Shown piece by piece: positions 4,601 through 59,177 of a stretch of DNA of 64,000 nucleotides. The notes under the pieces were generated by a model. It saw nothing but the letters and a program-made list of their open reading frames with translations. It had not been told where the DNA came from and did no database searches. The stretch covers positions 28,644,166 to 28,708,165 of the forward strand of contig NC_079222.1 of NCBI RefSeq assembly GCF_029633865.1, written 5' to 3'. A program made the translations under genes and the position numbers. Every line of letters starts with the position of its first letter. Within the stretch, counting starts at the first letter, position 1. Origin of the DNA: Lampris incognitus. Taxonomy: Eukaryota; Chordata; Actinopteri; Lampriformes; Lampridae.

Positions 4601-7600
4601 CTATTTCACATCTCAGACTTAAAGCAATTTACCTGAACACCATATAAACCACTATTTAAAAAAAAATCATCTAGACTTGAGAAATTCCCTCTTGCTGTAG
4701 TACCTCATTCTAAAAGAATTTTTACTATCCGATAATGCTGACCTGTCACTAAGCACCACCCCTTCAGCCCCTGGAGGAGCGATGGACAACTGGAAGGGGG
4801 TGTTGAAATAGTGCTGCTGCTCGTCTGACCGGTGTATCACTTCTCCTCCTCGCACAACCAGGAAGCCAGAGTCACCGAGGTTACATGTGTGAATCCGGTG
4901 ACTTCGTCGATCCAGAACGACAATACAAGCTGTACTGCTCCCTGGAGATGTAATGGGTATCAAACAAGACAATAGAAAAAGAAACATTTTTTTAACTGAT
5001 TTTTATCAACTTGGATGCATTCTGATTTGATAGCAATTATTTCAAGCCTAGAACTCCAAGTAATATCTAGTTTGACCAGTTTGAACATTGAGAAAGAGAT
5101 AACACAATAACTAGATGTGCATTTTCATCTATGGTTGTTGAAAAGACAAAACACTGAGCAACTACAATGCTATCTTTATGTTTCATGTCAGTTGTATACT
5201 TTTTAAATATCTTCTGCATGTCAGAAAAGAAACTGAAACTGAGATTACATTTAGTCTGTGCACTAGTTGAGCAGATTGGTAAATTAAGTCCTTTCCCTGC
5301 ACCAAATTCATAACACTTGCAGTGTTACGAGACATAAGTCTGGGTAACCTTGAGCTGGGTCGGTTTAAACATATACCTTCTCACAGCTTCCCAAAAAAGT
5401 AAGTCGTTTGACAAACATCATGACATGGGGGCTATTTAATGTCAACACTGGCTGTAGTCCAGAGATATTAGGTCTCAGCAGAAACGTGACCTCTGTCACA
5501 TGTAAGACATGTCTTGAGTGTTTAAAATATCTTTAAACCCTCTAGCCATATAAGTTAAAAGTAAAATGTTGTCTTGTACCTATTCTGGTTTGGGGTGAAA
5601 GTTTCACCAGCGATAAAGGGGCAATGTTTGAACCCGTGACACCCAAACGTTTTCATTTGGGGATGATGAAAGAGCAGGAATGCATTGTGATCAATTTCCA
5701 GTGCAGTCAGTCACCTCATGTTTGTTATGCCTACATCCCTAATCGGTATCTAGCCCTACTCCTCATTCACAATATTTTTAGGCCAACATACACAGAGAGG
5801 AATTGAGGAAGATACAAGTCATAGTCAAAACTGAGCGGGAGTTGTGTGCACCAAAATCCAAAAAAAAAAAATACTCCATGCAGGTAGTTTGGCCTCTCCA
5901 TAGTGAAATCATTATATGTAGCTCTTTAAACAGAGCAACTGCTGGCAGCCTATGACTTATCCTGCAGCTATATTATTTCAGTGAGCCCATGTGTATACAC
6001 GGGAGGCTTCAAGACCACCAGTAAGTTTGCGCTAAGTACTGTGTGTCGTGTGTGTATGCACTCACCGAGAAGTGGGACTTTGTTCTGTAGGAGCTCATAG
6101 TATCCAGAGGTTAGGATGCCCACTGGGTTGCTGGGTATGAAGCGGCCCTCCTTCACTAACCGCTCACAGGTCCGCATAAGTGTGGCAGAGAACTGAGAGG
6201 GGTCAACACCATAGTCACGCCAACCACCTACACCATCTGCAACCCCTGAAAAATCAGAGTAAAAACATTTTATTCAGTAGCAATGGACAATCCCCAAAAT
6301 AAACAATACTTTTAATAAATTCATTATTTTGTAAAGCTGTAATCCTAAGGATGTTGTTTGTTAGCTGGACCTGATCTATTTCACGTCACACTTATGATTT
6401 ACTTTACAAATGAGAACATACTTTCTTTTGCCTCGCACCAGTAAAAGCTCTTGAAGTTACTATGTCAAGAGAGCAGTAGCCATTAAAGGTAAGGAGAATC
6501 ACAGGGGAGGATTTGGGACGAGGCTACAATCGATATTGGCATAATAAGATATTACGACGATATGCATCAATGCAGTGCAATTCATACTTTCTATTAAATC
6601 TTTTTATTTGGCATATAGGCCTACCTGCATCAGTTCATTTGACTGCATGTAGTCTGATTCTGTTTACAAAATGCAATGGCATCAGGAGAGTACCAGGTTA
6701 TAACATTAACATTATAGATCTGACATGTTGCTGAGTCTCGAGTGTAATTTGTAATGAGACATTGCTCTGAAATCATGACTTCCAAAGATGGCTTGGCTCT
6801 TTTTCCTGTTAAGAGCTTTGGGAATTTGTGTGTCGTAAAATCACATGAAAACCACAAACAATAGCAACGGAAGACACTCCGCAGATTTAAGTGTGGCCCA
6901 ACTTCATCCTCGATCCAAAACCAATTAACACCAGACTGCTTACTATTTATACTGAGCTTTCAGTTGTAGATAAAACTGTGGCACTTATCTTTACGTAAAT
7001 AAATGGCATGATTGAGCATTGTTCTAGAGTGAATCAATACCAATACATTGTGCATCTTGTGTGCTGTTCTGCTGACCCACAAAGAGCACAATTCCAACTT
7101 TCCCTCTTTCCAACGCCACAGGAATGATCTACCTTAGGGTTCACAGGGTTTCCCTCTTCAAGCAAAACAGGGGTCATCTATCCAACGTATGTACTATTTG
7201 ATGAACAAATGGTCTATGATCAAATGAGTTGTGGTCCTTTTAACAAAAGAACTTTCCAAACTATAACAATATATTTTTGAGGGCAAATGTCACGAAAAAG
7301 CTGTGAGCCAATCAAGCAGCCCAGCCGGCCAAGGGTTCACCCAGGTGAGTGACAGGCTAGACTACTACACTGCCCCCAGCTCAGACATGTGTCACATGGA
7401 CTACACAGGGCTGCAGCAGGGAATATCTGAAAGCTGGTTGTTTATTCTACAGTGTCATTTCTAACATGAAGGTTTCAGAGCATTTTGGCTTTTTAACATA
7501 TGTTGACAGAACAACGCCATGAGATTGTCTACCACTAGGGATGTTTACCTTCCTTGCAGACAAAGCACTTACTAGCGGCTAACGTCGTTAGCAATATGGC

Positions 7601-8318
7601 TGCCTCCACGCACAACCATTCTGACCTTTATAAGACATTGTATGTGTTGGTCTAACTGACAATTTGGTCCTAAACGTCAAGTTTTGGTCGCCCATAATGA
7701 AGCACGTGTCACTCCATCTACTCGTTTCCACTGACGTTGGACTTCGGGTGGCTCTTTATGGGTTAAAGGTCGTTACGGTTCACCTCACAAAGCACCCTCT
7801 TTGTTCCACATTTAACTTTCCGTAAAGATGAGAAGGCGACATCCGCATTGTGCTACGAAACATTCAATAAGGCGTTCTGCATCCCGTAGAGAACACGAAA
7901 CCATGATATGTACAGTTGTTTTCTCAAATGAATCAGTTGTGCGTGTGTGTGGGGGGGGGGGGCTGCTGTGTTTTCATTCTAGGCGTACGCACACGTGTTT
8001 GTCAGCTCACTGAAGGTCATCCAACCGTGGCACGGACGGCGCAGTTACAGGGAAAGACAAACTTCAGTATCTGAACCGAGAAATCAACAATACAACTACA
8101 GTCGGCGCCACCTTACCTAAAACATCAGCAGTCTTGTGTCGAGCAATAAAACAGGCGTCATCCCCGTAGCACATCCCTTTCTTCAAAATCCCCTTACGAA
8201 AGTCTTTCCCAAATCCATAACTAGCCGTGACCAGGCTATAGTCCCGACCATCGGTTTGAGAGAGTCCACCTAGGACAGCCCTCGCAACCAGTCTGCCATA
8301 AGAGAGTACGGATAACAT
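1655..8318 (-). CDS. pptc7: PPTC7, mitochondrial PP2C-type protein phosphatase
   Basis: Six coding exons on the minus strand, in transcript order: 8117-8318, 6066-6245, 4743-4941, 2844-2967, 2598-2727, 1655-1713. All have GT/AG borders and phases that close to 894 nt (297 residues plus stop; the human protein is 304). The start at 8318 gives [10 protein letters not shown], matching the PPTC7 N-terminus. PP2C metal-site motifs are present: DGVGGW (Asp71), NLGDSG in exon 3 and TATDGLFDN (Asp216). The C-terminus ends [13 protein letters not shown]. In the known family this is a mitochondrial Mn/Mg-dependent phosphatase acting on COQ7 and other matrix proteins, and restraining BNIP3/NIX mitophagy. 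The last exon codes only 19 residues and is separated from exon 5 by an intron carrying a SINE. Introns 1 (about 1.9 kb) and 3 (about 1.8 kb, also with SINE sequence) are large. No break in the reading frame was seen. Fish may have paralogues, so the exact copy is not resolved. Confidence 0.95.
1834..2265 (-). repeat. tRNA-derived SINE, family A (copy 1)
   Basis: Full-length copy in pptc7 intron 5. Read on the minus strand it starts GGGGCGTCCGGGTAGTGTAG, carries a B-box-like GGTTCGAATCCC, continues through a conserved ~350-base body (GAGGCATGTAATAGTCTGCA) and ends with TTGGGAGAAAAAAAAGGGGG. Ten copies of this ~440-base family occur in the window. Confidence 0.88.
3662..3738 (-). repeat. SINE family B, tRNA-like head fragment
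   Basis: Only about 77 bases of the head survive, including the A-box and B-box (GGTTCGAACCCCAG on the minus strand). It lies in pptc7 intron 3, not far from a full family A SINE. Confidence 0.65.
4087..4512 (-). repeat. tRNA-derived SINE, family A (copy 2)
   Basis: Full-length minus-strand copy in pptc7 intron 3. It is flanked by a short direct repeat containing AAGCATTTT (left about 4082-4090, right about 4519-4527), which fits a target-site duplication. The overlapping ORFs of 95-105 codons across it are repeat artefacts. Confidence 0.88.
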
Positions 8319-8700
8319 TCCCAAACACGAACGCCGTCCTTAAGAACCCAAACCCCACTCTTGCCGTCCTACGCCGATACTGCTTCGGAACAAACCCGGC
8401 TGTTTATCCGTCCATGCGACTCGACAGCCCAGCTTCCGTAAAGGGGGCCTCGTACAGCAAAAACCGCAATGTCGAAGAAACGTCACCGTCCACTGATAGC
8501 CGTTATTTACGTTTCAGTAGATTTCATGAGCGCTGTTCCTCCGGTGCGCTTTAACCTTCCCGGCATGTTTCTACTCTACGAGACATCAGCGCTGGATACC
8601 GATTCTCCAAAGTCGCAGCCCCGACGTCGTTACACGCGTGGCCGTGTGCGCATGTGCGCCGGATAATTTCTACGTAATGACGTACCGCGCCGACCTTTCG
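8319..8700 (-). promoter_or_regulatory. CpG-rich promoter region of pptc7
   Basis: The segment just upstream of the pptc7 start codon has many CpG dinucleotides, in contrast to the AT-rich introns. It contains TGACGT/ACGTCA-type (CRE-like) words near 8480 and 8680 and CTTCCGT/CCGGAT-type words. No clear TATA box is placed to serve pptc7. Its position and composition suggest a CpG-island promoter; the transcription start was not determined. Confidence 0.5.
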
Positions 8701-10131
8701 ACGCACTGTTTCCGCCCCCCCCCCCCCCCAAGGCTTTTGTCCTTGGTCTTTGATCTGAAATGTCTATTTTATTTTTCGATGGACGAAATATTGAATGACT
8801 CCATTGAATGACTCATCCGCCTGGGGCATAGGCAGAGTCTCTGTCTTCTGATAGTCAAGTCTTGTGTTATAGACAAATAGCGTGCTAGTATGATAATAAT
8901 AATAACCCCCCCACAGGCCCGTGTCCTCCATTACCGAACAAAAAGAAAAAAATAATGTAGGATTTTCAGTTAGACAAACACATTCAAATGTTAAACTCTT
9001 AATGGCTTCATAAAGAAAACGTTTTCATTGAGCTCAAAACAAAACAAAACAAAACAAAACGGAGCAATCCGGCAATATCAGGGAATATTGACAATGATAA
9101 TTTTTAATGATCAGGGAATGTTTTCATTAGCCCGTGCTGCTGCCCCCCCCCCCTTACCGCATGACAGAATTGTACAATATAGGATCATTTTTCCAAGAGT
9201 TCAGTGGTTTTAGAAAATTGCGCTACATGGCACACAGGCCAGTAAACGGTTTTAAGGAGGAATGAAATTGTAAAATTTCAGAATGCATTAACAGCTAAGT
9301 GCTCATCGTCGTCATTGCCTTAACTAACGGGTGATGCTAATTTTTAAAGCGCGTGAATGCGTGATCCCAGCTATCTGCTGCTGATGTTCTTCAAAGACAC
9401 CGATCGTTGAGTTAGAACTAGGAACGCTGGGTGGTAAAACGAACACACCCCGTCCGGATGAACCCACCCACCCAGTACCAGAGCTCACATCACTGCGTAC
9501 CGTAGTGGAAAACATTGCGCGAAACATCCCGGATAAGACCACAAAATCGAGAGGAATCGGTATGTAAACATAAGCGAGGCAAATAGATAATGTATCTCTT
9601 GTGTGATGCTTACACAAATATAATATGATATCATTAAAAATACTATAATACTATAGTATAAACCAGACGATTGACGCCCATTGAGAGGGGCACGTAACGG
9701 GTTTCGTTTTTCGTCATCAGTGGGTATTGATCCAAACCGACATTATATAATAGATTAGCGAATACTAAGCCAGCTGCAATGGATGCTGGTTATTATGTTA
9801 CAAAGTAACCGCTTTTCTTCTTTTGTTTACATCGCCAGTGTTGCCATGCAGTAAAATCTCCCCTCATGAACATCAAATGAACAGCAACAAAGTGACCAAC
9901 ATGAATAGTTTTGAACAATGTAGTTTTTTTATTATTAAGAGTAATTAACCCATAGCTGCTTATGTTACATACAAAATAACGCAACCTGTGCAGTTCACGT
10001 TGACTGAGGGATTGTCGTCATGCTGTCGGGCTACAGTTGTTACCGGAGATTGTTGCATTGTGTTTTCGCTGCCATGTTTCCTTTTATTATTATGACATTT
10101 CTCCCATTTTTAAAACCCTTTTTTTCACCAG
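8701..10131. other. Intergenic interval between divergent pptc7 and prnp; likely prnp 5' region
   Basis: No coding ORF is supported. The prnp coding exon begins at a splice acceptor (10130-10131), so at least one non-coding 5' exon must lie upstream. A CpG-containing stretch at about 9440-9560, ending in a donor-like CG|GTATGT near 9559, is a weak candidate for that exon and its promoter. Short AAAAC and C-tract simple repeats occur near 9036, 8717 and 9144. Confidence 0.35.
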
Positions 10132-10138
10132 GGCAGCA

Positions 10139-11752
10139 ATGGGGAGATCTTATGATGTGGCCCTTGTCGCTCTTCTCATGATCACGCTTATACACGGTGA
10201 CTTATCATGGGCCAAAAGAAGTAGCAGCAGCAGTAGCAAGAAATCATCATCTTCCAGCAACAGGGGTGGGTCTTCGTCCTCGTCTCAGAAGCCGTCGAAA
10301 ACAACCAACACTCAGTCAGCGAACTACCCCAGACAGCCGCAGAGTCCAAACAGAAACCCCAATCCATATCCTGCAGGTGGCAGCTATCCCTATCCAGGGA
10401 GAGGTGGAGTCAATACTGGAGGACAGCCCAACCAGAAACCAGCGGGGGGATATCCAGGAGCAGGAAGTTACCCTGGAGTCGGTAGTTACCCCAACCAGAA
10501 TCCTGGCAGAGCTAATCCTGGAGGCTATCCAAACCAGAACCCTGCAGGTGGCTATCCACATGCAGGTGGACACCCCCCAGCGGGTGGCTATCCAAACCAG
10601 AACCCTGCAGGTGGCTATCCGCATGCAGGTGGACACCCCCCAGCGGGTGGCTATCCAAACCAGAACCCTGCAGGTGGCTATCCGCATGCAGGTGGACACC
10701 CCCCAGCGGGTGGCTATCCTAACCAAAGAAATTATCCGAATCAGTATCCAGCCGCCGGAGGCTATCCAGCAGCGGGTGGATACCCAAATCAGTACCCAGC
10801 TGCAGGTGGTTATCCAGCAGCTGGTGGCTATCCAAATCAAAGTCCTGGCAGAGGAAATTATCCAAATCAGTATCCAGCTGCTGGTGGATACCCGGCAGCC
10901 GGTGGATATCCCAACCAGTACCCTGGCAGGGGGGGCGTGAATCCAGGGGGATATCCCAACCAGTATCCGGCTGGTGGTTACCCAGTCAGAGGAGGAAATG
11001 TTGGACAGGGCTTTGGTTCAAATCCAGGTAGTTATCCAGGTGGTGGGATAGGAGGTTACCCCAACTGGAACCCAAACAATAAGATCCTCAGTCCCCGCTA
11101 TGGTGGAGGTGGCTATGGTTATGGTGGTTATGGAATGGGAGGGTCTCCCTTCTCACAAGTTGTTCAGAGTAAGGGATACTCTCCTTCTTTTAAATCTCAA
11201 AGTTTTGGGAAAAAAGCCCTAATGGCTGCAGGTGTGGGGGCTGTGGCAGGCATGGCCATAGGCTATGGAATTGGGCGCTTTCCTCGACCACATTATAGCT
11301 TTCATAATCATGAAGAAGAATATTATTATAACAACTACATGTACCGCCGTTATGGCTCCCGCTCCACCGATGAAAACGACTTCGGGCGAGATTACGCCTA
11401 CAATCCACCACCACGTGCAGAATCTTATGATAGTTTTATGGGCAGCTGCATGAATAGCACCGATCCTCTAAAAGACCAGGGTCGCAACTCACAGTTACCA
11501 GAGAATGGCAGAGATAATGAGGACGATGACGAATTAGTCAGCATTGAGGAGATTGGCTACCCAGCCCTAATAAAGCAAGTCAAAGCCCGGCGCTGTATGA
11601 ACCACTATATGGAGTACTCTGAACGCTTCTTGCAGAAACGGACTGCTGAACATCATTTCCAGCCCAACCGTAGCAACCCACTGAGCTATGGGCTTATGCA
11701 GCTTCTCACCTCTGTTCTAATGCTCTTGAGCAGCATACTCTTGCTTCAGTGA
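10139..11752 (+). CDS. prnp: Fish prion protein (PrP), GPI-anchored
   Basis: One 537-codon exon. The start at 10139 follows a pyrimidine-rich splice acceptor ending at 10131, as in other PrP genes whose coding sequence sits in one exon; an in-frame extension to 10037 is intronic. Visible order: signal peptide (about 1-25); Ser/Lys-rich basic segment (26-61); long Gly/Tyr/Pro/Asn repeat region (about 65-350), with three His-containing 21-residue repeats at 131-193; alanine/glycine hydrophobic core (about 360-381, AAGVGAVAGMAIGYGIG); Tyr-rich and acidic segments; two cysteines (437 and 486) placed to form the PrP disulfide; N-glycosylation sequon Asn439-Ser-Thr; C-terminal hydrophobic GPI signal (about 515-537). 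Function by family: a cell-surface glycoprotein linked to adhesion and signalling in fish. Length fits known fish PrPs (about 450-610). Which of the fish PrP paralogues it is was not resolved. Confidence 0.93.
   Translation: MGRSYDVALVALLMITLIHGDLSWAKRSSSSSSKKSSSSSNRGGSSSSSQKPSKTTNTQSANYPRQPQSPNRNPNPYPAGGSYPYPGRGGVNTGGQPNQKPAGGYPGAGSYPGVGSYPNQNPGRANPGGYPNQNPAGGYPHAGGHPPAGGYPNQNPAGGYPHAGGHPPAGGYPNQNPAGGYPHAGGHPPAGGYPNQRNYPNQYPAAGGYPAAGGYPNQYPAAGGYPAAGGYPNQSPGRGNYPNQYPAAGGYPAAGGYPNQYPGRGGVNPGGYPNQYPAGGYPVRGGNVGQGFGSNPGSYPGGGIGGYPNWNPNNKILSPRYGGGGYGYGGYGMGGSPFSQVVQSKGYSPSFKSQSFGKKALMAAGVGAVAGMAIGYGIGRFPRPHYSFHNHEEEYYYNNYMYRRYGSRSTDENDFGRDYAYNPPPRAESYDSFMGSCMNSTDPLKDQGRNSQLPENGRDNEDDDELVSIEEIGYPALIKQVKARRCMNHYMEYSERFLQKRTAEHHFQPNRSNPLSYGLMQLLTSVLMLLSSILLLQ
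10529..10717 (+). repeat. Three 63-bp tandem repeats inside prnp
   Basis: Copies start at 10529, 10592 and 10655, with a partial fourth at 10718. They are almost identical (an A/G difference at the CCACATGC/CCGCATGC position). Each encodes 21 residues containing YPHAGGHPPAGGYP, so each adds two histidines. Near-identity suggests recent expansion by slippage or unequal exchange. Confidence 0.9.
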
Positions 11753-14384
11753 GATATTAAAATGGCACTTGAAACATGTCCCAGTTTTTCACATTAGGGT
11801 AATTTGTTCCTCATAAATAATGGTCACTGAGTGTATATGTCATCACAGACGCTTCCCTTATATTACATTGCAGCTCATATGCCCTTTAAATAGCCTTGTT
11901 TTTTGTCAGGACTGAAGAATTCCTTAGGGATGCTGATCCATGCTTGCTCTCATAGTCTCAAAAAATTGCATTGAGTTGACTGATGGTAAATCTTTTCTTT
12001 AAATATCTTGTGCCATCTCATCACACAGTTGTTCAATCAAATTGAGATCCTGTGTCAAAACAGCTCACTGCAACTATGCTGCTTTCATTTCCATATTTGC
12101 GGAATCTCATTGCAAAATCTTGGCCATGGCCATAATTGTGCTGGAAAGAAAACATTTGCCGATTAATGAACTGTTGCCATAAGAAAAGATTAACCTGGAT
12201 TGCAATAGTGCTCGAGTATCCTGCAGTGAATAGACTTGCTCCACTATCATCAAGTGTCCCAATGTTTGCAAGATAAACATCTTCCACTCCATGACTCGTA
12301 GTGTTGCAGTTCTTGACAAACAAAAACCACCATGTCTGGCATCTACAATCTTTCTTACTCTCGTACCCCTCTCCATCCCTTCGTGTGCACTGATAGCAAG
12401 GGATTTAACAGGTGGATCACAACCTTAACTGGAACTCACCTAATCAGGCTAATTCATGGAAAGTTTGGAAAGTTGTTTTCTCAATGTATACAGTTCATAT
12501 TAAATAAAACAATAACAGCTCTCTTGGAGGCAAATTTAGTTATGCTAAACAACGTCTCTAGGCCAAACTTATTCCACGGGAAAATAGGATGAAATGAAGG
12601 GATTTCATGGCTTTGCTTTTAATAATCAGACATTTGTCTAGAATTATATTGGCAGCCCATTTTCTTTGTGTTCTTAATCTCGAGGTGTGTCTACTAACTG
12701 TAGCTGTGATTGTAATTGTGTTTTATTTTACAACTTTGCACTATTATTTTCCTTTGACAGCGCAATATTCAGCACTCAGTGTTTGAAGAAAAAACGTCAT
12801 GTTTGTGCATGTTTCAATTTCAATAGTTTAAAAAAAATTTGAGCAAGTTACCCTGACTTGAAGAGTTTTGTGTGTGTAAAGTATATAATGTGATCTAATG
12901 ATCAGTTAAGCAATGCACGTTTTAACAAATGTTTAACACAACAACTTGGAAGATTTTTCTGTTGTTATGAGATACCACCCAAGATGCAAGATTAAAACCG
13001 GCCGTCTATCTCCATAGAAAGATGCTTTGGGGAGCAGAGGGACGAGGGGTGGGCTCGAGTTGGGATTTCAGTTGCTTTGCTGAGTCAGCACTGCCGTGTA
13101 GATAAACTCTTCCAAAAACCTTGAAATCATTTAAATCTCAGAATTAAATCTGACGATACCTGCTGTAAACTGCTGTCCTATTTCCTGATATTTAGCTTTT
13201 CTCAGCTGTCCTAACTTACCTTTTTGATTATGTGGTAAAAAAACAACAACTGGTAATTCCAACAATCAAATAGTAAATTGTGTTCAAGTTCTCTTTCCAA
13301 GCCTTTTGCATTTAAGTACATCTTTATGAGAACTGATCTGGAAGCTAAGGTGAAGTAAAATACTTTGAAGCAGGATAATTTAGACCATATTAATAATAAT
13401 GATAAAAAAACCCAGAAAAAGAGCAAAGTAATCAGAAATGGCTTTGAATCGTCGTATTCCTGCAAGAGCTTTAAGAGTTGACATTTACAACTGTTGCAGT
13501 TATTCAGCTTTTTTATTATTATTATTTTGGTGAAATATAAAAGCATAAATTCTCCAGTACATAGAATGAAAATTAAAAATGGCTGAAACTTGACTTTTGA
13601 TATCAAAAGTCTGGTGCTCACATATATAGAAGTCATTGCAAATCCAGATTGCAGTTATATCATATAAGTGATTACTCACTATATTAGCAAAGCAAAACAA
13701 AAAGTTTATGGCTGGCCAATTGCTTGTTTAACTGATTTTATTTGGAACTGACCATATGAAACCTTCCGTATAGAAGTTCTTTGTTTTGTAAATTATTATT
13801 ATTATTATTGTTGTTATTATTATTATGGTGTTCCAGACAATCTATCAACTGATGTAGTGTCATGAAATGTTATTTTATAACATAAAACGAAATGTTTTGT
13901 TCTTTTCATAAATATGTTTTCATGAAGAAAAAGTTATTAAACTGTGTTTTATAACCTGGTTCATTATGTACAATATAATGACGGAGGGAGAATGTTCAAT
14001 AGTTTAACGATTAACTATTTCTACCCCCAAGTCCACCAATTTCATGTCAATTCAGAATTGAATTCTGCTTTTAATGCCCACCCCTGTGGTCTCACTTGTA
14101 GAATATCTGTGAAGTGCACTTATTTCTCTTTAACTGTGGATATTCTGTGTATTCTCTGACTGTATATTATTGCTCTATTATGAATGGTAATAAAAACTAA
14201 TATTAAATTAAATCATGTTTTAATTTTGAAAGTTTACTGTATATTAAAATAAGATTAATTTTAATATAGCAGTCCACAGCTTAGTCTTTGCCAGAGCATA
14301 TTTAAGGTTTCAAGCCTGAAAGGCTGAAACTCTGTTGTTTTTTTGTGTAGGTTTATTATTTTTCTTCTTCAGAAATGTTCGCGC
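11753..14384 (+). other. prnp 3' UTR and downstream flank
   Basis: No further coding exon is seen. AATAAA hexamers lie at 12503-12508 and 14189-14194, either of which could end the transcript. About 11930-12400 has broken minus-strand ORFs and wording reminiscent of a decayed Tc1-like transposon; this is weak. An ATT trinucleotide tract lies at about 13793-13822. Confidence 0.4.
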
Positions 14385-15185
14385 AAATTCTTGTGAGATG
14401 GTAAATGGAAGAGGCATGAGATTTTGCCCATGGATTGGAAGTTCTGTGCAAGTGCTGCCCAAGTAATACGACCCCAATCGGCCAGATGGGGTCACTATAA
14501 TTAACGGTCAAAATTTTGAACTTTGAAAAGTCATAACCACTACGTCGTAAATCCAATTTACACGACATTTGGTGCAGACAGCCATCTACCCTCACGCCAC
14601 AATTTCGCCCCAAGAACCACTAAGGTCCGCCTGACTAGATTTTCCAACATTTTTAATTTTTTGAACGCCTCACTTTTGACATCTCTTAAACCGTAGGTCC
14701 AATTGCTACCAACATTTCAGGGGATCATTATTGTACAAAGCCTATTAAAATTTGTACAAAGCTTAATGATATCTTATTTAGTTTTCAATATATTGACTCA
14801 TGAACTTCAACAGGGCGTGGCTCAGCACATAAACAGACCAAAGTCAACAATCGTTGGGCCATTCATCACAAACCTTGAAGGATATGTCTAAGGATATGCC
14901 CTAAAAGTGTCATTCAAATCATCCACTAGGTGGCGCTACAAATGGGAAAAAATTGACATGGCATAACGCAAATCAGACTATAAATCAGAAATTGTTTGTG
15001 CAATCATTACAAAACTCGCAGGATAGCTTTCATAACAACATTGAACCATGTGTGTAAAAGCATCATGAAATCGCTCAATAGAGGGCGCCACCAGTTCTAA
15101 AACACGTTCATAGGCCTGGAGCAAATTTGGCCATAAATCAATTACAGTTTGTCCAAACATCATCAAACTTGGTGGATATTTTTAA
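14385..15185. repeat. Unclassified interspersed repeat
   Basis: A non-coding stretch containing phrases typical of fish interspersed repeats, such as AGGTGGCGCTAC (about 14927) and AGAGGGCGCCACC (about 15080), with internally similar sub-blocks such as repeated ATAAATCAGA/ATAAATCAAT contexts. It has no recognisable terminal repeats or ORF. The class is not recognised. Confidence 0.4.
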
Positions 15186-15236
15186 TTAAGCTGTTGAAGC
15201 TTTCAGCACCGCTTGTGGCTATATTACTATTTATAT

Positions 15237-15242
15237 TTTATT
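15237..15242 (-). promoter_or_regulatory. Candidate polyadenylation signal of the PrP-like gene
   Basis: TTTATT on the plus strand reads AATAAA on the minus strand, about 205 bases downstream of the PrP-like stop. If used, the convergent prnp and PrP-like transcripts would end about 1 kb apart. Confidence 0.35.
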
Positions 15243-15446
15243 TAGGTTATTTTTAAAATATGGGACTTGGACTTTTGCATCATAATGGCTTATCTCAGAC
15301 AAAATGAAAAAAAGGACTTTCACAGGAAAATTTTTGAGAGAACTTTAATTTAAAAATCAATAACTTTTTGGCCTGTTTTTGAACATTTGTATCTGTAATT
15401 GATGGGGTAAATCCTCCTCCAGCTCGTGATTTTTATGGTAAAAGTC

Positions 15447-15902
15447 CTATATCCATGCTCCAACAAGGAAAGGTACCACTGGTCCAAGTGTAAGAAAAAT
15501 GTTAACCATTAGAGCAGGGGAAGATGCACGTATGTAGACTTTCCAGTCAGAGTGGTTGCGAAACCGTTGGCCTTCATGATAGTATTGCTGGTCTTTCTCG
15601 GAGGAGTGTTTCTTAGAATCGTAACCATGCCAGTAACCATACCTTGGCCTACCAAGTGAGCCCAACCCATACCCAATGGCAGAGCTTCCCATTGCACCAG
15701 ATGCTGCTGCTGCTGCCCCTGCCAACTTCAGCCCTTGTTTAGAGAAACCACGGCTCTGGGAGGGGGACGCTTTGTCACTGGGCCCATAACTTTTTCCCTT
15801 ACCCCGGAAGCCAATTCCAAGCTTAGACTGTATAATTGGGCAAAATACTGCCATAAGTAACATCCAGGCCCAGAGGATGAGACACTTCTTTTGTCCAGTC
15901 AT
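15447..15902 (-). CDS. PrP-like / Shadoo-like GPI-anchored protein
   Basis: A 151-codon single coding exon. The start at 15902 (MTGQKKCLILW) lies 17 bases after a splice acceptor (TTTTTACAG, ending at 15920), so a non-coding first exon lies upstream; the longer in-frame ATG at 15944 is on the intron side. Domains: signal peptide (1-26); Gly/Lys/Arg/Ser-rich basic segment (27-57); alanine-rich hydrophobic core (58-83, LKLAGAAAAASGAMG then AIGYGLGSLGRP); Lys/His/Tyr-rich hydrophilic segment; sequon Asn116-His-Ser; C-terminal hydrophobic GPI signal (about 130-151). Both cysteines (7 and 21) are in the signal peptide, so the mature protein cannot form the PrP disulfide. The core is close to that of the neighbouring PrP (AIGYGLGSLGRPRY against AIGYGIGRFPRPHY). 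It fits the PrP-like genes described in fish, or a Shadoo relative; the symbol is left open. Confidence 0.85.
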   Translation of the reverse strand: MTGQKKCLILWAWMLLMAVFCPIIQSKLGIGFRGKGKSYGPSDKASPSQSRGFSKQGLKLAGAAAAASGAMGSSAIGYGLGSLGRPRYGYWHGYDSKKHSSEKDQQYYHEGQRFRNHSDWKVYIRASSPALMVNIFLTLGPVVPFLVGAWI

Positions 15903-17492
15903 GAGTGGAGATTCTTGTCCTGTAAAAACAAATGTTTGTTTCATGTTTATTATATGACAGATGAGAGTCTATATTTCTGACTTAATGTTCAATTAGATTA
16001 ATCGATTATGATGAGAAGACATTTTACTTCATTTGGAATCACATAAAAAGCAGTTGTTCTCTATGTTTCTAAAATGGCATTACTGATAGCTCAGTGCACA
16101 TGGTCACACGCTTACCAAAATAAACCTCTTCAACTATCTCTCCATTCTGGTGACACTAGGATTAGTCAGGCATTTGGTGGGAAATGAAATGTTTCTCCTA
16201 TAGTTTAATATTTGTTTTCTGTTTTGGCACATTTGTCTTATATCCAAATCCAATATACCCGATCAATGTGAAAAATATGCATTAAAACTTAAGTTTAGAT
16301 GTTGTATAAAGTTATATAATGATCAATGCAAAGTATTTGTAAGAATGTAATTAGTCGTTATTCATAAATAATACTGTTGATAAATAAACATTAGATTCAG
16401 TAAGTTATGACTCAACAACACCAGTGTTCATATCATTCATTTCAGGTAATGAAAATCACATTTTTCATTAATCAAAAATTTCTCACTAAATAATGAATGT
16501 ACTGTCAAAGGCTTGGTCACTAATAACATGAAAATAATGTCAAAATGACTGATTTAATTCAAGAGTTTTTTTTCTAATCATTTCACTAAAATAAATGTGT
16601 GTTTTCATTACCTTTGTGTCACGATAAGGGGAAACGTTGCCTGGTGTAATGATGCTGGAGTAACAGTCTTTACACAATACTGCTCAAAACACAACACTGT
16701 ATCATGCTGGTTTTCAGCGGCATTGTTAACAGACAGTAAAGCTCCTCCCCAAACCTCCATTTGCTATTGGTCCAACAGCAACAATACAGTATGAGTGAAT
16801 GATATTTGCTGATGGTGGTCTTTCACACGCAGATGTGAGACCTCTTTCTCCTCCCATTGTTTAGCAAGTGCAGTGTCTATTACAGTGAATATGAGAGAAT
16901 GGCAACCGATCTGTTTTTGTCACAAAGTGCATTCTTTGCTTATTCATTATTCTCAATCGGTTTCCTGCCAACTCTCCAGAATACAGCTCAGTGTATCCCT
17001 CAGATAAATAATGGCTTTTATGCATAGCTCATATTGATCTGCAACAGTGAAAGGCCTCACTCTTTTTGCTAACACATTTATTGCACTTATTTTACACTTA
17101 ACACCTATCACCATTCAAATTTCACATTATGCACCATGCACAAAACGTCATTTGTTGATTTACCTCATTTCAGGTTAGCCATACAGCTTAAAGGGAAAGT
17201 CAAGAGATGGAAAAACAGAAAAGTACCTGGCCCAGACTGTCTCTTAATCCACTCAGAAGCACTGAATTGACAAACTGGCTGCCCTTTTCAAAGCCATTTT
17301 GAAACCAGACACAGCACATCTGCATTACTTCCTTGTGCTTAAAAAGCACTATCATTATTATATTCCTAAAAAAAAAGCACAGGTTTAAGTTGGAAAATAA
17401 TTTCACCCTGACATCTGTGGTTCTGAAACGCTTGTGTTTGTCCATGTAAAACTTATCGCTGAGGCCCTTTTGGACCCCTACCATTATTATTA
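15903..17492. other. Upstream region of the PrP-like gene
   Basis: AT-rich non-coding sequence without a supported gene. It should contain the non-coding first exon and promoter of the minus-strand PrP-like gene. The open frames at 16597-16794 and 17200-17484 have no family resemblance. Confidence 0.4.
16740..16800 (-). promoter_or_regulatory. Candidate promoter of the PrP-like gene
   Basis: On the minus strand a CCAAT box (16766-16770) is followed about 20 bases downstream by a GGGGAGGAG GC-box-like word (16742-16750). The position, 840 bases upstream of the coding exon, suits a first exon plus short intron. This rests on motifs only. Confidence 0.25.
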
Positions 17493-17507
17493 TTATTGTT
17501 ATAATTT

Positions 17508-30386: not shown

Positions 30387-30483
30387 GCCGTTTTCACCGT
30401 CGCTCTCCCGAAACCGTGCGCGTCCACATTTCATGCCGTAGACTCACACCAGCCTACCTTTCCTAAATATGTGATCGTAAGTC

Positions 30484-33400
30484 ATGGCAGTCGTTCACAA
30501 CTACCTGTTCTTACTCTGTGGTCTGCGCGTTTTACTCTCGGTTGATCTGGAGTTGGTGGACACAAGCAATCCCATATACCACCTAGGTGCCCCAGATGTA
30601 ATCGACTACAAGGATCCTTGTAAAGCTGGTACAGTGTTTTTGTTTTCACTTTTTCTTTTTTTTAACCCATCTCGGTGTTTTTAATTGTCTTTATACTCAT
30701 TGTGTGTTTCAAGCAAATGTATAATTTTCACTGCTTAAACGGTCATCCACAACCCTCCGAGGCCTGGTCTGTGGTGGGCAAGGGTAATTTACAGGGTAAT
30801 TTTAATTTGTTATTATGTTTTGTGAGATTTTGATTGCGGTAAAAAACAAATAAAGGTGATGCTTAATTGGAGATTATATGTTGCATCATTTCCAAGTGAT
30901 GCAAATCATTTTATCTACTCAGTCCTATTCTAGACGGGCCCAAGGAATAAAACCCTGTTGTAAACGCTGTCCAAGAAGTTGGTATAGCGAATTTTGAAAG
31001 TTTTTGATAGTAGTTCATGTGGATTCATGTCCCTGTCACCTGCTGATTAAAAATTAGTACATTTTAAAAGCTTGTTCTCGCGTGTTAAACCGTGATCACA
31101 CGGAGTAGCTCACATTTTCTGAGACAACCATCAAATATGAGAACTTTGCAATTCAAATTTCAATTTGCTCAGACCTCATCAAATTACATGGTCAGATCTA
31201 TCCTGAGCACCTATAAACAAGAGTGGCGTGCAAGTGAAATGTGTTTTGCGTGTGGGTGCCACTACACAGTCCAGTTGTTGGTATTTTGTTGTTGTCAGTG
31301 CGACCATCAGATAACCATCAGATAACTGCATCTTAGCTGTTTCACTTGGCATGCCTGGATTACTGCAACGTTGTTATTCGGTTAGATTCAGCCATCCTTA
31401 ATTCACAAGTTGACCTCAATTTATGATGTCCGGCTTTCAAGTTCAGTCATAACTCAAGCGTCAGGTTTTAATTCATTTGTTAAGTTTCTAAAATGGCACA
31501 CCAAGCTGAAAGCAAGGAAAGACTAATTGTCCTGACTGTTCACACTGGAATACTTAATATATTAGATATATTTTGAATGACAAACAGAAGTTCATTTAAA
31601 AGAACATTTCTAAAAAATTTAAAAAAGTGATTTTTTTAAAAGTAAATAGAAGTATGATTCCAGTCTCGATTCTTAGAGACATGAATTCAAGTTGTGCAAA
31701 GCAGTTATATCTTTATCATGTTTCATGTTATGCACGTTCCTCTGTATAGCTGTTGAAAATTCACCATTTTCTAAAAAGTTCAGATAATTCTTTTAGTAAC
31801 TATGGGGGTCTCCGGCTGATTAGGCCCCATTTCATTTGAGACTGTTAAAACTTCCAAAACACACCACTCCTCCTTGAGGCCGTTGCCTGGAGACTAGAGG
31901 TCATTGAGGCCATGCCAGAGCAGTCCTCGGCTGGACGCTGGTGAAATCCCTCTGGCTGCAGGGCATGCGGTATGCACTGCAGGGGTGACAGTCATTTACA
32001 GTCACCCTTTGCATGAGTGAGTCCACTTCAAAGGCCAGTACAGGGCCTGCAGGGTCGTTTTAGTTGGATTTTTTTGGCCTTCAGAGAGTCTTACATCACA
32101 CGAGGAAATAGGATTTAATGGGGGAATACTGATGTGTGGCAGTTTGCTTTACCTGTTCAATGCAAGATGCTGAACCATGCCTTATGTGAAATCAAAATAG
32201 TGGAAATCAAGGCTTGAAAACTCCCCTCAGTGACAAACACTTTACCTGCATGGGATTGATGATATTATTTCTTTTTAAGCCACTGATGGCAATGCTAGTG
32301 ATTATCACTACCAAAGATAGAAATATTGAGATATAGTGTCTGCTATGGCATCTTAGTAGGAGCCAGCATTTGACTGGCTCATTAAGCATTTAGGCATGCA
32401 ACAGAATTATCTGAAGTCCATACAGCTTCATTATGATGAATTCTTCAACAGCATGTTGTCAGACATTTACGTCTCTGCCAGCATAATAGAGTATATATTA
32501 TACCAGCATGTCCTAATAGAAAAGAAAACCGCTATTTAAAACAAGATTCGGTGCTGTCTCTTAATTAGACTTGCACATAATTGTTTTTTAATGCCAGTAC
32601 TTCGAGAAATTTAGAGATTTGAGAACTTTAAAACTTCTGTCATAGATCTAGTCAGGCTATACATTTACTTCCAACAGTCTTAGTCTGATTTGTACTAATC
32701 CTAATGGGACAAACTAATTGTGACCTTGTATATTGGTAACTATTAATCACTATTTAACTTATAGAGAAACAGTCAAAATGTCATTGATAGTGATATTTGG
32801 TTGGGGAATTAATAAAGAAATCTATGCAGGTTTCAGAAATGTAATACAGCCACTGTTTAGCACTACATGTGCTACTGTTAGCTAGTTAGCAGAATTACGT
32901 TGATCAGCACTGTGCACCCACAATCCTCTAAAATATTCAGTAGTCATGGCTAACCTTTGAAATTACATAGGCAGTCTGAAGCACCAACACGTTAATGTTT
33001 ATGGGGAAATATGTAGTGTAGATTGTGCTCAGGAGGTTTGTGTGCTGATCAAACTCTGCATGAGACCAACAGGGACGTATGTTGAACTCCATTTGGGGTA
33101 CAGACATGCATGAACAAGGAGACAATATGCATATAGGAAAGCTGGTGGAGTGTTGGTCTTTGTCTATCATGAAATTAGTTTTCTCAGCATGAATGTATCA
33201 ACTGTCCAAACAGGAAATCAGTAGCATACTCCAATGTTGGTTCAATCCATGAAGCCCAGTCTGACCTGCAGTTCATTTACCCTTAGTTCATAGCAGTTCA
33301 TGTTCATATGTATAGAGCAGCAGATCCTTAAAGTCCTGTAAGTTGCGACGTGGGGCCTCCATGGATCGGACTTGTTTTTCCAGCTCATCCCACAGATGCT

Positions 33401-36400
33401 CGATCGGATTGAGATCTGGGGATTTGGAGGCCAAGGCAACATTTTGAACTCTTTGTCATCTTCCTCAAACCATTTCTGAACAATTTTTGCAGTGTGGCAG
33501 GGCAGATCATCCTGCTGAAAAAAGGCCACTATCATCAGGGATTATCAAAGAAGGTTGAATCAGTTCATCTAGATGCTGTAATGTCCACAAATACATGGGA
33601 CGACTGTGTGAGCGAATAACTGGGGCTTTTTTTTATCACTCTCGTTCTGTCATTCATACATCCATGCTGTGTGTCCTGCATACATGCTTGTTCCTCCTTC
33701 CTACTTCTGTACTCACCCCATAACCCCTTGCTTCTCTTAAAGAGGTATTCTCTATTAAAGTCTGAACATCACAGATACGTTTTTTGACAGATATGTTTCA
33801 CCACTCAACTAAGTGACATCTTCAGTCTAAACTGACTGCAGGTATCCCCACCCCTTATACACAACACAGTTGCATAACGACCAAATATGAGTGTGACCAT
33901 TAACTAGAATTTCAAAGGCCACGTGTACAATTCGCAGAGGATTTGGGAATGTTTGCAATCAAAGCATTATAAGATGGCAACAGATGTACTCTTAGTCCAC
34001 CCCCCCCCCCACTCTCTGGTTCAGGGAAGGTTGTTCCCTCTTAACATAGATGGCCTCTTTGACTCCCCATTCAAACCATCGTTCCTCCCTATCAAGGATG
34101 TGCACATCCTCATCCCTGAAAGAGTGGCCACTGGCCTTTAGATGGGTGTAGACTGCGGAGTCCTGGCCTGACGTGTCAGCTGTCCTGTCTTGTGCCATTC
34201 TTTTGGCCGGCGTCTGTTTAGTTTCCCCAATGTAGAAGTCACAGCAATCCTCCTTGCACTTAACCGCACACACTATACTGCTCTGCAGCATGTTTTTGGG
34301 GTTTGAAAGCAACTGAGACACGGATTTTTTAAAATATGCGTCTCAGCTTTTCCAACACTCCCGCCACATACAGAATCACCACTGGTTTACGCTTAGGCAG
34401 CTGCTGTCCTCCTCTCTTCGATTAGCTGGTGCACTGTTTGGATGTCTTCCTGGCTTTGACAAACACACAGTTAGGATAACCACGCTTAACCAGGGCCTGT
34501 TTAATGCAGGGTTTCTCCCCTTCCCCAGCCACTGTGTCAGTGGGGACATTGTCAGCTCAGTGGTACAATGTCCTAATGACTCCTAGTTTGTGCTCCAGTG
34601 GATGATGAGAGTCAAACTTTAAGTACTGATCAGTATGTGTTGGTTTACAGTAAACATCAACAAACCAATGTCCCCCATCAGCAATTGCAATTCCACAGTC
34701 TAAGAAGGCTAACCTGTCATTTTACATATCCTCCCTGGTGAACTTGATGTGGTTGTCCACAGAGTTAATGTGGTCAGTGAAATGTGGTACATCCGGAGAT
34801 TTAATTTTAACCCAGGTGTCGTCCACAAATCTGAACCATTGGCTAGGTGGTGTTCCTGGATAGGACATCAGAGCCCTTTTCCACTTCTTCCATATACAAG
34901 TTGGCCACTACAGGGGAGACTGGGGAATACATAGCATACTCATGTCTGCCTATAGTACTGTCCCCTGTGTGTGAAGTATGAGGACTGAAGATATATTACA
35001 GGAGCAGACACACTTGGTCAGTGTTAGGGTGGTCATATTGTTAAGGGTGGGGTCGTTTTGTAATTTCATATGGCTTACCTCCACTGCTTCATCAGCAGGA
35101 TGTGAAGAGAAACTTAACATCATACTAAGAGACCATTGTTTCACCCATCTCCATACTAGCATCCCTCACCTTATCCACAAAATCCATAGTGTTCTGAATG
35201 TGATGTTCATTACTGCCTACCAACAGGTTAATAATAGACGCAAGAAACTTAGAGATGTTATAGGTCAGAGTTAATCATACAAACAATAGGATGTAATGGC
35301 ACATCCTGTCGATGTAGCTTAGGTAAACCATTCAGACTAGGTGTAGCGTCCCCCAGGTATAATCTGTGGTACAAAATTATGTCAATAGCATTGTCCTGTT
35401 CTAACAGCTTCAAACAACCTATCACCTTTTTCTTGTAACCACTGCCTGGATCTTGTTTCAGGGGCTCATAAGTATTTGTGTCACTAACACAATTGTCATA
35501 CCTTTCTCATGATAGACTGTCTGGTTTAATACAAAAGTGCATCTGCCTTTGTCCGCTGAAATGATGATGCTGTTATTGTCCTTACTGAGAGTTGTGAGAG
35601 CTTTCCTCTCGTCTCGCATTGCTCAGACAGGCTGAATCTTTCGTCTGCAGTTGCTCCGCTTCCGGGTCCGCAATGTTGTTTCCTCGGATCGCTGATTCCG
35701 TGGCTGTGATCAGTTCCACTAGTGGGATTTCCCTCGGCATAACAGCAAAATTCAGCCCCTTAGCAAGGATGTCTTTCTGCCCCTGGGTGAGTTGCCTGTC
35801 GGACAGTTTCTTCACCCACGTGTCCGCATCGCCGGCGTGTGTCCGGCGTCCGTCTCTCTGCCTGCCGATGTCTCTGGCGTGCAGCAAGTAGGTCGAACTT
35901 CTTTTGCTGCCTGGTTTTCAACTTTTCGTGTTGAGCTAGACGAGCCTTCTCCGTGAACTCAACCGCACATTGGAAAGTGGTCTCATCTGGACGCGACACG
36001 AGTCTCCGTTTGATCTGCTCCTCTTTGGCATTCAAAGCGTCGATAGTAAAATTGGTTTGTCTCACCCGTTTCGTTCAACAGCTGGCTCTGTGCCTGCTGG
36101 AGGATCTGCTTAGCTCGGTGGCCCTTGACCGAAGATGTCATTTGCAGGCTCTTGGGCGTAACTCCGCTGTGTCTCAGGTGGTTCCTGTAGTCTGCCATTT
36201 TACGTGCTGTTTGCTCGTACTCACGTACAAGTTTAAGGCAATCCTCGCCGAAACGAGTGGCAATGTCTTGATACATGCTCCATAATCTAGGTAAGAAAAT
36301 CAAAGAAGGTTTATTCAGTTCATCTGGATACAACGTTTAATGACAGATACGTTGTATCCATCATGTGCCCAGGGGCCGTCCGCAATGGGATAAAAAAAAA

Positions 36401-39400
36401 AAAAAAAGTATGCAGGTTTTTTTTATGTCGGGGTCCACACATATATGACACAAGGTGTTATGTATGCACACATCGACAGTGCTGCATTTGATTTGGTGCT
36501 GTTCTATTGTGCTGGGATCGATTGGTGATGCCTGCGGGCTCTGGGTTGTTTGATCGGGTTTGACCCATTCTCTTGATAATTATCCAATCAGAATGAAATA
36601 AAAGTTGTTTCCAAGAAAATTAAGTCTCATGATTGACTATTATGGTGAGATGGCTGGGCAGGTGGTGACAGGTGAGCAAGCGGCAATCGATAGGCTAACG
36701 ATCAAGGTGGGTGGGCATAGCGAGCAGGTGGTTTACATTGCACAGATTCAAGATCAGTTTTTCTTAAACTAAGTCAAGGTTAAAACAGTTGAATTATTAT
36801 TATTATTATTTTTAACCTGACCCACTATCAGTTAGGTTTTATGAATGTGTGGGAAAAATTGTCAAGCAGCAGAAAATGGACGGCGTTAACCAAAAGCCCA
36901 GCGGGGCTGCCAAAAGAAAGTAAAGAATAGAAAAGGAAGTGAAAGAAGCGACCACAATAAAAAATGTTCCGCTAATAAGTTGGGGTTTTTTTCTTCTTCA
37001 AAAAACCTAAACAAAGTGAAGGAGAGGGCGTTCCGATGGAGGATGTTGGATTGCAGCAGCAGCCTCAGCTAGCTAGTGTAAACTACTAATAAGACACGTT
37101 AGCCCCCTAGCTAGCGGGTCTGACCCTTTAGCCGAGCGGTTAGTGATGTCGCCTTGTGGTGCAGTACACCTCGTATCGAATCCCGCACCGGGCAAGAAAA
37201 TAACCGATTACACTAGCTAGCAACGAATACGTTAGCCCGGAAGTCTTTAGCTGCAGCAGCGACACACTGCCTCTGTCAGGGTAGGGGTACAACAAGATAT
37301 GGAAAACGGCGAAAAAACGGGAGAAGAAACGGGACAACGATGGGGTTGATCAAACAATGGAGAGTAACCTTACTTCAAGCTCATCTGCAGTCTGAAACTG
37401 ATAATTAAAAAAAGGAACTCAGAACAACCATGGGTCAGAAAAGGCTCTCAGCGCTTTCTCTGATGGCCATCGAGTCTGAGCTTGTGAGCGAGAGAGCTGG
37501 ATTTGAGGACTTGATCACAGAGCTTGCAAAGAAAAAGTCAAGAAAGAAGAACTTCTAAAGGTAACAGTCATTCCATTATGTTGCCTGTGCACTGAGTAGC
37601 ATTATCTGTTGTGATTGTGTGTTGCTGTACATTTTGTGGATGAGTTTATTTGATATGCTGTTTTTGGAGTTCTGTGTGACGTTGCCAAGCCCACTTAGTG
37701 AGCCTTATTTTGAAACCTGCTTTCAGCTTTGCTCATTATCCAGTCACACTGGATAATGGATGGATGGAAGTAATAGCTGGTGTGCTGTCTGCTCGGGTGG
37801 TTTTCCATGAACACAAACATTGCCATAGTCTAGAGTCATGCACTGCCTTGGGATGGTTTAATCCATTGTTTCTTTGTCTTGTGATTTGTGAGTGAAATGG
37901 CACAGTACTTGGTCTATTGAACTGTATAGGCATGCTTGCTCAGCTGGACTGGTTATTCAGCCTTTGACCAATAAGTGTGTGATTATGGTCTGGTGGATTT
38001 GACATGCCAGGTTGACTGGAAGCTCAAAATAATTAAGGTGGGGTTTAATGGCTGAGGCGTGGTGTTTGTGTGTTGGGGGGGGGGGTGTGAGCTTCAGTGT
38101 CCAGGGGCCCCTAGGTACTAATCCAGCCTTGACTAGGTGACATCTTCAGTCTAAACTGACTGCAGGTATCCCCACCCCTTATAAAAAATATAGTTGCATA
38201 ACGACCAAAACCAACGACCAGTTTCAAATACAAATATGGGTTTGATAATTAATTAGAGCTTCAAATGCTATGTGTACTATTCACAGAGGACTAGGGAATG
38301 TTGCAATCACAGCATTGTAAAATGGCGACAGATGTATAACGACTGAAACCAACGACCAGTTTCATATGCAAATATGGGTGTGACCATTCCCAAATCCTCT
38401 GTGAATAGTGCACATGGCCTCTGAAACTCTAGTTAATGGTCACACCCATATTTGTACATGAAACTGGTCGTTGGTTTCGGTCATTATGCCACTGTAATGT
38501 ACTGTATTGCTTATAAGGGGTGGGGATACCTGCAGTCAGTTTAGACTGAAGATGTCACTTAGTTGAGTGATGACATGTATTGGTCAGTAAACGTTATATC
38601 CAGATGAACTGATTCAACCTGCTATGGTTTTCTTACCTGGATTATTGAGCATGCATCAAGACATCAGGGAATATCGTTACCATGAAAGGGTCAGCAAGGG
38701 CACTCTGACTGGTCTGTGGCTATGCAGCCCCATATGCAGCAAGCTGAGATGCACTGTGTGTTGTGATACCTGTCGATCATAGCCAGCATTAATTTTTGCA
38801 ATTTGAGCTACACTAGCTCTTCTGTCGATCAGACCAGAGGGGCTAGCCTTCACTCTCCATGTGCATCAATGAGCCTTTGGTGCCCATGACCCTTTCTCCG
38901 GTTCAACGGTTGTCCTTCCTTGGATTATTTTTGGTAGGTACTGACCACTCCATACCAGGAATACCCCACAAGACCTGCCATTTTGGAGAGGTTCTGACCC
39001 AGTCGTCTAGCCATCACAATTTGGCCTTTGTTAAAGTTGCTCAGGTCGCTTGCCCAGTTTTCCTGCGTCTAACACATCAACTTCAAGAACTGACTGTTCA
39101 CTTGCTGTCTAATATATCCCACCCCTTGACACATACTTTGTGACAAGATAATCAATGTTATCCACTTACCTAACATTAAAACCAGTGGTTTTCATGTTTT
39201 GGCTGATCGGTGTAGTGTGACATGCTTGCTCACTTAGGTTTTTCTGGGCAGTTATTTCAGGTTCGATACATACTGAAAATACTGAACAAACCTGTCATGC
39301 CAATGCATATAACCAAACAAGGGAAGGAGATAAACGACGGTTATATTCCCCATGATTTGTTCAGGTGCCACTGTAATGAGATAATCAATGTTATTATATC

Positions 39401-45400: not shown

Positions 45401-45835
45401 ACAAAAAATCTCTTACAGTATTGTCACACTTTAATATGTTCATGAACAGACGCACAAGCCTAGATGCTTGAATGTGCACCGATCAGTACAGTCTCTCTTG
45501 TAGGGCAGTTGTCTGTTCTTCTCCTTACCTCATGTCTTCCAGCTCACATCCCACCAAGGCCATTCCTCCAATTACTGTGTACAGACTTTGCTACACTCTG
45601 TGAGTTTCCAACACCCCCCTGCGATCGACCAACAGTTAACTATAGGCCTTTATTTGTTCACATGGAGAATACACCTTATAAGACTACCTTTGTTCTGTTA
45701 CATATGAACTTTAAGCATCTAGCTAAGCAATATAGACTAAAGTTAAACACGGTATAGGTCATACATGGTCACAGAGTAAAAGTAAACAAACTTCATATGA
45801 ATTGCTTTCACAGGTGCAATGACAAAATAAAGTGG

Positions 45836-45871
<36 letters not shown>

Positions 45872-59023: not shown

Positions 59024-59177
59024 GTGAGTATAGTGAGAGCCGACTCGGCCATCCTCAGCACACTTTCCATACTCATACATCTTGCTCAGACTTTTAGACT
59101 GAAATGAGACTTATTAACACTACCTGTCTAAAAAAAAAAAAAAAAACTATTATAGAACAAATATCCATGTCCTAACA

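Follow-up and report, generated by a model that had tools for sequence, protein, structure and literature searches.

Short relatives of the prion protein (PrP) are known as neighbours of fish PrP genes. According to excerpts of PMC1781936, SPRNB is flanked by calsenilin on one side and PrP1 on the other in medaka and stickleback, as in pufferfish, PrP-like adjoins PrP2 in all fish, and Sho, Sho2 and PrP-like cluster together; excerpts of PMC11711791 describe duplicated short genes downstream of each fish PrP. Here we describe a 64,000-nucleotide stretch of DNA (the window; C15:28644166-28708165 of a 1.48-Gb fish assembly, G000) that carries a long PrP gene and a short relative. We conclude with high confidence that this pair is the PrP1-Sho2 locus of an acanthomorph-looking teleost, composed of two separate coding genes on opposite strands with their 3' ends facing. 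Because SPRNB is already placed beside PrP1 in print (PMC1781936, excerpts), the pair itself is known, and the locus is a further instance that adds one more teleost and allows a modest inference on age. What is new is that the other PrP of this genome, beside Rassf2 on C1, also faces a short partner, PrP-like.

Comparison with described loci

The two genes of the teleost PrP1 (stPrP-1)/SPRNB locus are adjacent here, with orthology supported by search and tree. The published locus has calsenilin, for which a motif search here gave no match within 60 kb; the neighbours here are a pptc7-like gene and a tolloid gene. At the PrP2/PrP-like locus by RASSF2 (PrP-like is also PrP-rel-2 or PrP3), this genome has the same facing layout of a PrP and a short Shadoo-type gene, but the PrP belongs to another clade, the short protein is distinct and Rassf2 stands in place of the tolloid neighbour. 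Shadoo (SPRN) resembles Sho2 in its signal, basic segment and Ala/Gly core. Doppel (PRND) retains the globular domain without the hydrophobic core; the short fish genes are its reverse in domain content. In tetrapods Doppel is likewise a member of the PrP family located close to PRNP, towards RASSF2 (excerpts of PMC1781936 and PMC3203146), and SPRN is located elsewhere, beside GTP and PAOX (PMC1781936), with GTP tail-to-tail with it (excerpts of PMC4324250). The orientation of fish PrP relative to its short neighbour is not stated in the excerpts of PMC1781936, PMC11711791, PMC3203146 and PMC2745754, nor in those of PMC2735946, PMC4101497, PMC1899180 and PMC4324250 (partial literature coverage, figures excluded).

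The long gene is PrP1

The initial annotation placed a long PrP on the plus strand and a short relative on the minus strand, tail-to-tail, and on re-reading the coordinates, strands and frames are as it gave them, with both coding exons intact (Table 1). Its figure of 3.7 kb between the stop codons agrees with the computed 3,694 bp, and acceptor-like sites occur at 7 and 17 nt, within the 7-17 nt 5' of the ATG that it proposed for two single coding exons. We predict that an upstream non-coding exon would be spliced to the coding exon of each gene, and that PrP1 and Sho2 would each be transcribed from their own promoter.

In its one coding exon, PrP1 encodes a signal peptide, a domain of Pro/Gly/Tyr repeats, a hydrophobic core, a putative helical domain with two cysteines, and a C-terminal hydrophobic tail as expected for a glycosylphosphatidylinositol (GPI) signal; the signal peptide and tail were assigned by eye. 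Both cysteines and the core residues are invariant in a 30-row fish PrP alignment. The profile built from these rows matches the PrP structure 1xu0 (3.8e-6), which we take to be frog PrP. With residues 300-537 as the query, 213 proteins matched at E<=1e-3, and among the 120 of these that were listed the top matches are fish PrPs with about 66-72% identity. The names of these top matches vary ('prion protein b', 'calcium-binding protein P-like', 'prisilkin-39-like'), and database names do not tell the PrP paralogs apart. Pfam returned no match for PrP1 or Sho2, and an Rfam scan of the window gave none at the gathering score.

We name the long gene PrP1 on sequence grounds, because a 27-row PrP tree groups the window PrP apart from the clade of the C1 paralog and 'PrP2A'. 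In this tree the window PrP and seven other acanthomorph PrPs form one clade (97/95), within which the window PrP groups with that of Diretmus (88/91). The C1 paralog falls in a clade of eight that includes Scophthalmus 'PrP2A' (100/100). The tree was rooted on gar by choice and replaced a 38-row tree; the C1 PrP was added, and P0161 was left out because its core pattern was unmatched. In the earlier tree, which was midpoint-rooted, gar fell on the side of the window protein. The split of PrP1 from PrP2 in the 27-row tree applies among acanthomorphs only; in both trees non-acanthomorph PrPs sort less cleanly. Searching the whole genome with the last 193 PrP residues gave four matches at E<=1 from five candidates scored: PrP1 itself, two pieces of the C1 PrP, and Sho2 (E 0.11). 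At that threshold this query therefore finds two PrP copies, PrP1 and the C1 PrP.

Three near-identical 63-bp repeats (10523-10725) encode six regularly spaced histidines in the PrP1 repeat domain. The array is a candidate for metal binding and, with 98% matches, looks to be of recent origin; for pufferfish StPrP repeats, copper binding is cited in the excerpts of PMC4101497. Histidine-bearing repeats were rejected as a novelty, since at least two histidines are present there in 55 of the 120 PrPs with a findable core, the window PrP included (121 examined). The stretch counted was crude, and some rows are fused or hold non-repeat sequence, such as the Rassf2 part of P0089.

The short gene is Sho2

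The short protein has a signal peptide, a basic segment, a hydrophobic core, one N-glycosylation motif and a tail similar to that of PrP1; both proteins would be displayed at the surface as GPI-anchored proteins. The label 'Shadoo-like' was apt and can be made exact: searches, alignment and tree show orthology to teleost 'shadow of prion protein 2' (Sho2/SPRNB). A single-sequence search gave 48 matches at E<=1e-3, end-to-end with teleost Sho2, of which 20 are called 'shadow of prion protein 2', 15 are nameless and 13 are named otherwise (e.g., 'shadow of prion protein' or hypothetical). The alignment has 25 invariant columns in 20 rows, and end-to-end orthologs range from Albula and Megalops to percomorphs. 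The 20-row profile, searched against the 7,996 candidates sharing most words, returned 60 matches; by our reading, the final five are PrP-like or Shadoo proteins. Within its own genome, Sho2 matched only itself at E<=1e-3 (10 candidates scored).

In a 29-row tree of short proteins, the five nearest rows to the window gene are Sho2, and it groups with three percomorph Sho2s (92/76). The Sho2 rows do not form one clade in this tree, however: on long branches, PrP-like is placed beside Electrophorus Sho2 (94/84), and Shadoo beside Denticeps (90/83). The window Sho2 also departs from the usual core length, a common trait of Sho2 but no definition of it. Its core has 13 residues versus 11 in 52 of 56 pattern-matched proteins, with one each of 12, 10 and 7 (62 examined, the window included, and 6 unmatched).

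The window Sho2 (15660-15830, minus strand) has no RGG or KGG triplet close to its mature N-terminus, a feature that a crude pattern detects in 44 of the 62 proteins.

Kinship of the short genes with PrP

The claim that both genes share an Ala/Gly hydrophobic core was borne out, the resemblance exceeding chance, and the motifs named for it (AIGYG, the RP pair, Tyr/His) are correct on re-reading. Comparison of the Sho2 profile (20 sequences) with the fish PrP profile (30 sequences) gave a probability of 96% and a P of 2.7e-9 over 56 columns round the core. The match of Sho2 extends to 147 columns with PrP-like (P 2.3e-25) and to 100 with Shadoo (P 3.3e-17); PrP-like and PrP match over 36 (P 6.2e-5). 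These matches to PrP and Shadoo place the short gene within the PrP/Shadoo superfamily, as the initial annotation had it. Because the PrP match is confined to the core and the matches to PrP-like and Shadoo are longer, Sho2 is no simple trimmed PrP.

The initial annotation had further proposed an inverted duplication followed by loss or gain of domains. The homologous core and the facing layout on which this drew are real, but they do not establish an inverted duplication of PrP followed by domain loss. In its local form, Sho2 would be a turned-round copy of PrP whose repeats and globular domain disappeared in this lineage, and we give this scarcely any credence. Opposite strands, a core in common and the acceptor-like sites immediately upstream of the two start codons fit such an origin; however, Sho2 orthologs extend end-to-end across teleosts, a relative of Sho2 (PrP-like) faces PrP2, and Sho2 matches Shadoo over more columns than PrP. 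At the DNA level, blastn at E<=1e-3 found no match between the PrP1 and Sho2 coding regions or near flanks. A recent inverted duplication was rejected on this result and on the span of the orthologs.

Among 19 inverted-repeat pairs in 9000-17500, one (I14), which was compared with shuffles, joins the 5' ends of both genes (10200-10222 with 15884-15906, 23 nt). It matches at 18 of 23 bases versus 13-16 in 30 mononucleotide shuffles. The Sho2 arm of I14 lies at the start codon and the PrP1 arm close to where the signal peptide ends, and the pair was discounted as a trace of duplication, having been picked post hoc and lying in different frames at non-corresponding positions.

Querying the genome with turtle Shadoo gave six weak matches (best E 5.4e-4). 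The best two of the six, when translated, held no Shadoo frame; SPRN was thus not found, which does not imply its absence.

A second facing pair and the age of the arrangement

On C1, PrP-like and PrP2 lie tail-to-tail with 6,382 bp between their stops, and acceptor-like sites precede the ATG by 10 nt (PrP-like) and 21 nt (PrP2). With a second such pair present on another chromosome, the arrangement is probably ancient and no oddity, and it probably arose before PrP1 and PrP2 were duplicated. The simplest account is that the present layout would have been inherited from a time before that duplication, when PrP and a Shadoo-type gene had become tail-to-tail neighbours, either through inverted duplication of a common ancestor or through a Shadoo-type copy inserted beside PrP. 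We consider this likely; it extends the identification of the locus as PrP1-Sho2 and does not compete with it. In its favour, one genome shows this same layout at both of its paralogous PrP loci. This is synteny and orientation in a single genome, however, and independent rearrangement at each locus is an alternative. Because the gar root was chosen, the 27-row tree gives no date for the duplication and is not age evidence, and the short-protein tree is poorly resolved and neither confirms nor refutes the proposal. Gar and bowfin would be the fishes in which to learn which of the two, PrP or the Shadoo-type genes, gave rise to the other.

One protein model from Silurus meridionalis (P0089) holds Rassf-type domains and PrP in one entry and is probably a fused gene prediction, which suggests that PrP lies beside Rassf2, on one strand, in that catfish.

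The interval between the genes

An interspersed repeat makes up about a quarter of the gap between PrP1 and Sho2, and since it was inserted there, the present spacing is partly due to it. Its copies elsewhere in the genome are many, with 51 match rows, itself included (40 scored of 343 candidates). Taking the first AATAAA after each stop, about 2.7 kb would separate the transcript ends. Transcript overlap, which the initial annotation had raised, may occur, as the poly(A) signals permit both overlapping and non-overlapping ends.

Overlapping 3' ends could in principle regulate each other, by antisense pairing or transcriptional interference, and so keep the arrangement in place. Ends face each other at both loci, and use of distal poly(A) signals (e.g., plus-strand 14189 with minus-strand 13517 or 12727) would make them overlap. 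Nevertheless, the proximal signals would leave the ends well apart and the interval took up the repeat, and we regard such a function as very improbable. A further reading, likewise very improbable, is that the facing layout survived at both duplicated loci through a coupling of PrP expression to that of the short Shadoo-type partner by the convergent 3' ends; if true, a family member would exert antisense control locally over each fish PrP.

Table 1. Features of the window and of the C1 locus (positions without a prefix are those of the window)
Feature	Position	Strand	Basis
pptc7-like neighbour, PP2C-type phosphatase exons, ATG near 8318	4670..8318	-	read by eye
Likely 3' splice site, polypyrimidine tract and AG (10130-10131), 7 nt before PrP1 ATG	10119..10131	+	sequence, predicted
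PrP1 coding sequence, 537 residues, single coding exon	10139..11752	+	reading frame, homologs, tree
Tandem array, 63-bp unit, 3.2 copies, 98% matches	10523..10725	+	repeat analysis
PrP1 hydrophobic core, residues 360-379, then RP pair	11216..11275	+	sequence, alignment, profile comparison
C437-C486 stretch, two cysteines; glycosylation motif at N439	11447..11596	+	sequence, alignment
Interval between stop codons, 3,694 bp	11753..15446	.	computed
AATAAA signals in interval	12503, 14189 (+); 15242, 14357, 13742, 13517, 12727 (-)	+ and -	
Interspersed repeat, about 855 bp	14353..15207	.	longer genome copies at 74-82% identity
Sho2 coding sequence, 151 residues, single coding exon	15447..15902	-	reading frame, searches, alignment, tree
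Sho2 hydrophobic core, residues 61-81, two extra residues versus usual	15660..15722	-	alignment, pattern count
Likely 3' splice site, AG (15920-15921) 17 nt before Sho2 ATG	15920..15933	-	sequence, predicted
Tolloid/BMP1-type neighbour, astacin/CUB/EGF exons	30481..59094	+	Pfam; start and BMP1 name by eye
Rassf2 exons, first in C1 order, before PrP-like and PrP2	C1	+	
PrP-like, 176 residues	C1:100899486-100900016	+	reading frame
PrP2, 484 residues	C1:100906399-100907853	-	reading frame

Neighbouring genes

The phosphatase gene upstream of PrP1 is presumably pptc7-like, a name given by eye. It has a weak match to PP2C in the PDB (E 0.068), and the two exons tested had no match in Pfam. The tolloid gene beyond Sho2 is recognized by Astacin (5.1e-29), CUB (6.6e-16 and 5.2e-21) and EGF_CA (1.2e-9) domains. 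For calsenilin, four KCNIP motifs were unmatched in the window and in 60 kb on each side, a comparison that may miss split or diverged exons.

The pptc7-like gene is oriented away from PrP1 and has a CpG-rich stretch at its 5' end (8200-9000, observed/expected up to 1.44), which might serve both genes as a bidirectional promoter. Retroelement fragments at 18204-19589 and 26500-26889, both on the minus strand, lie between Sho2 and the tolloid gene, with matches to reverse transcriptase (1.9e-21) and integrase (1e-7).
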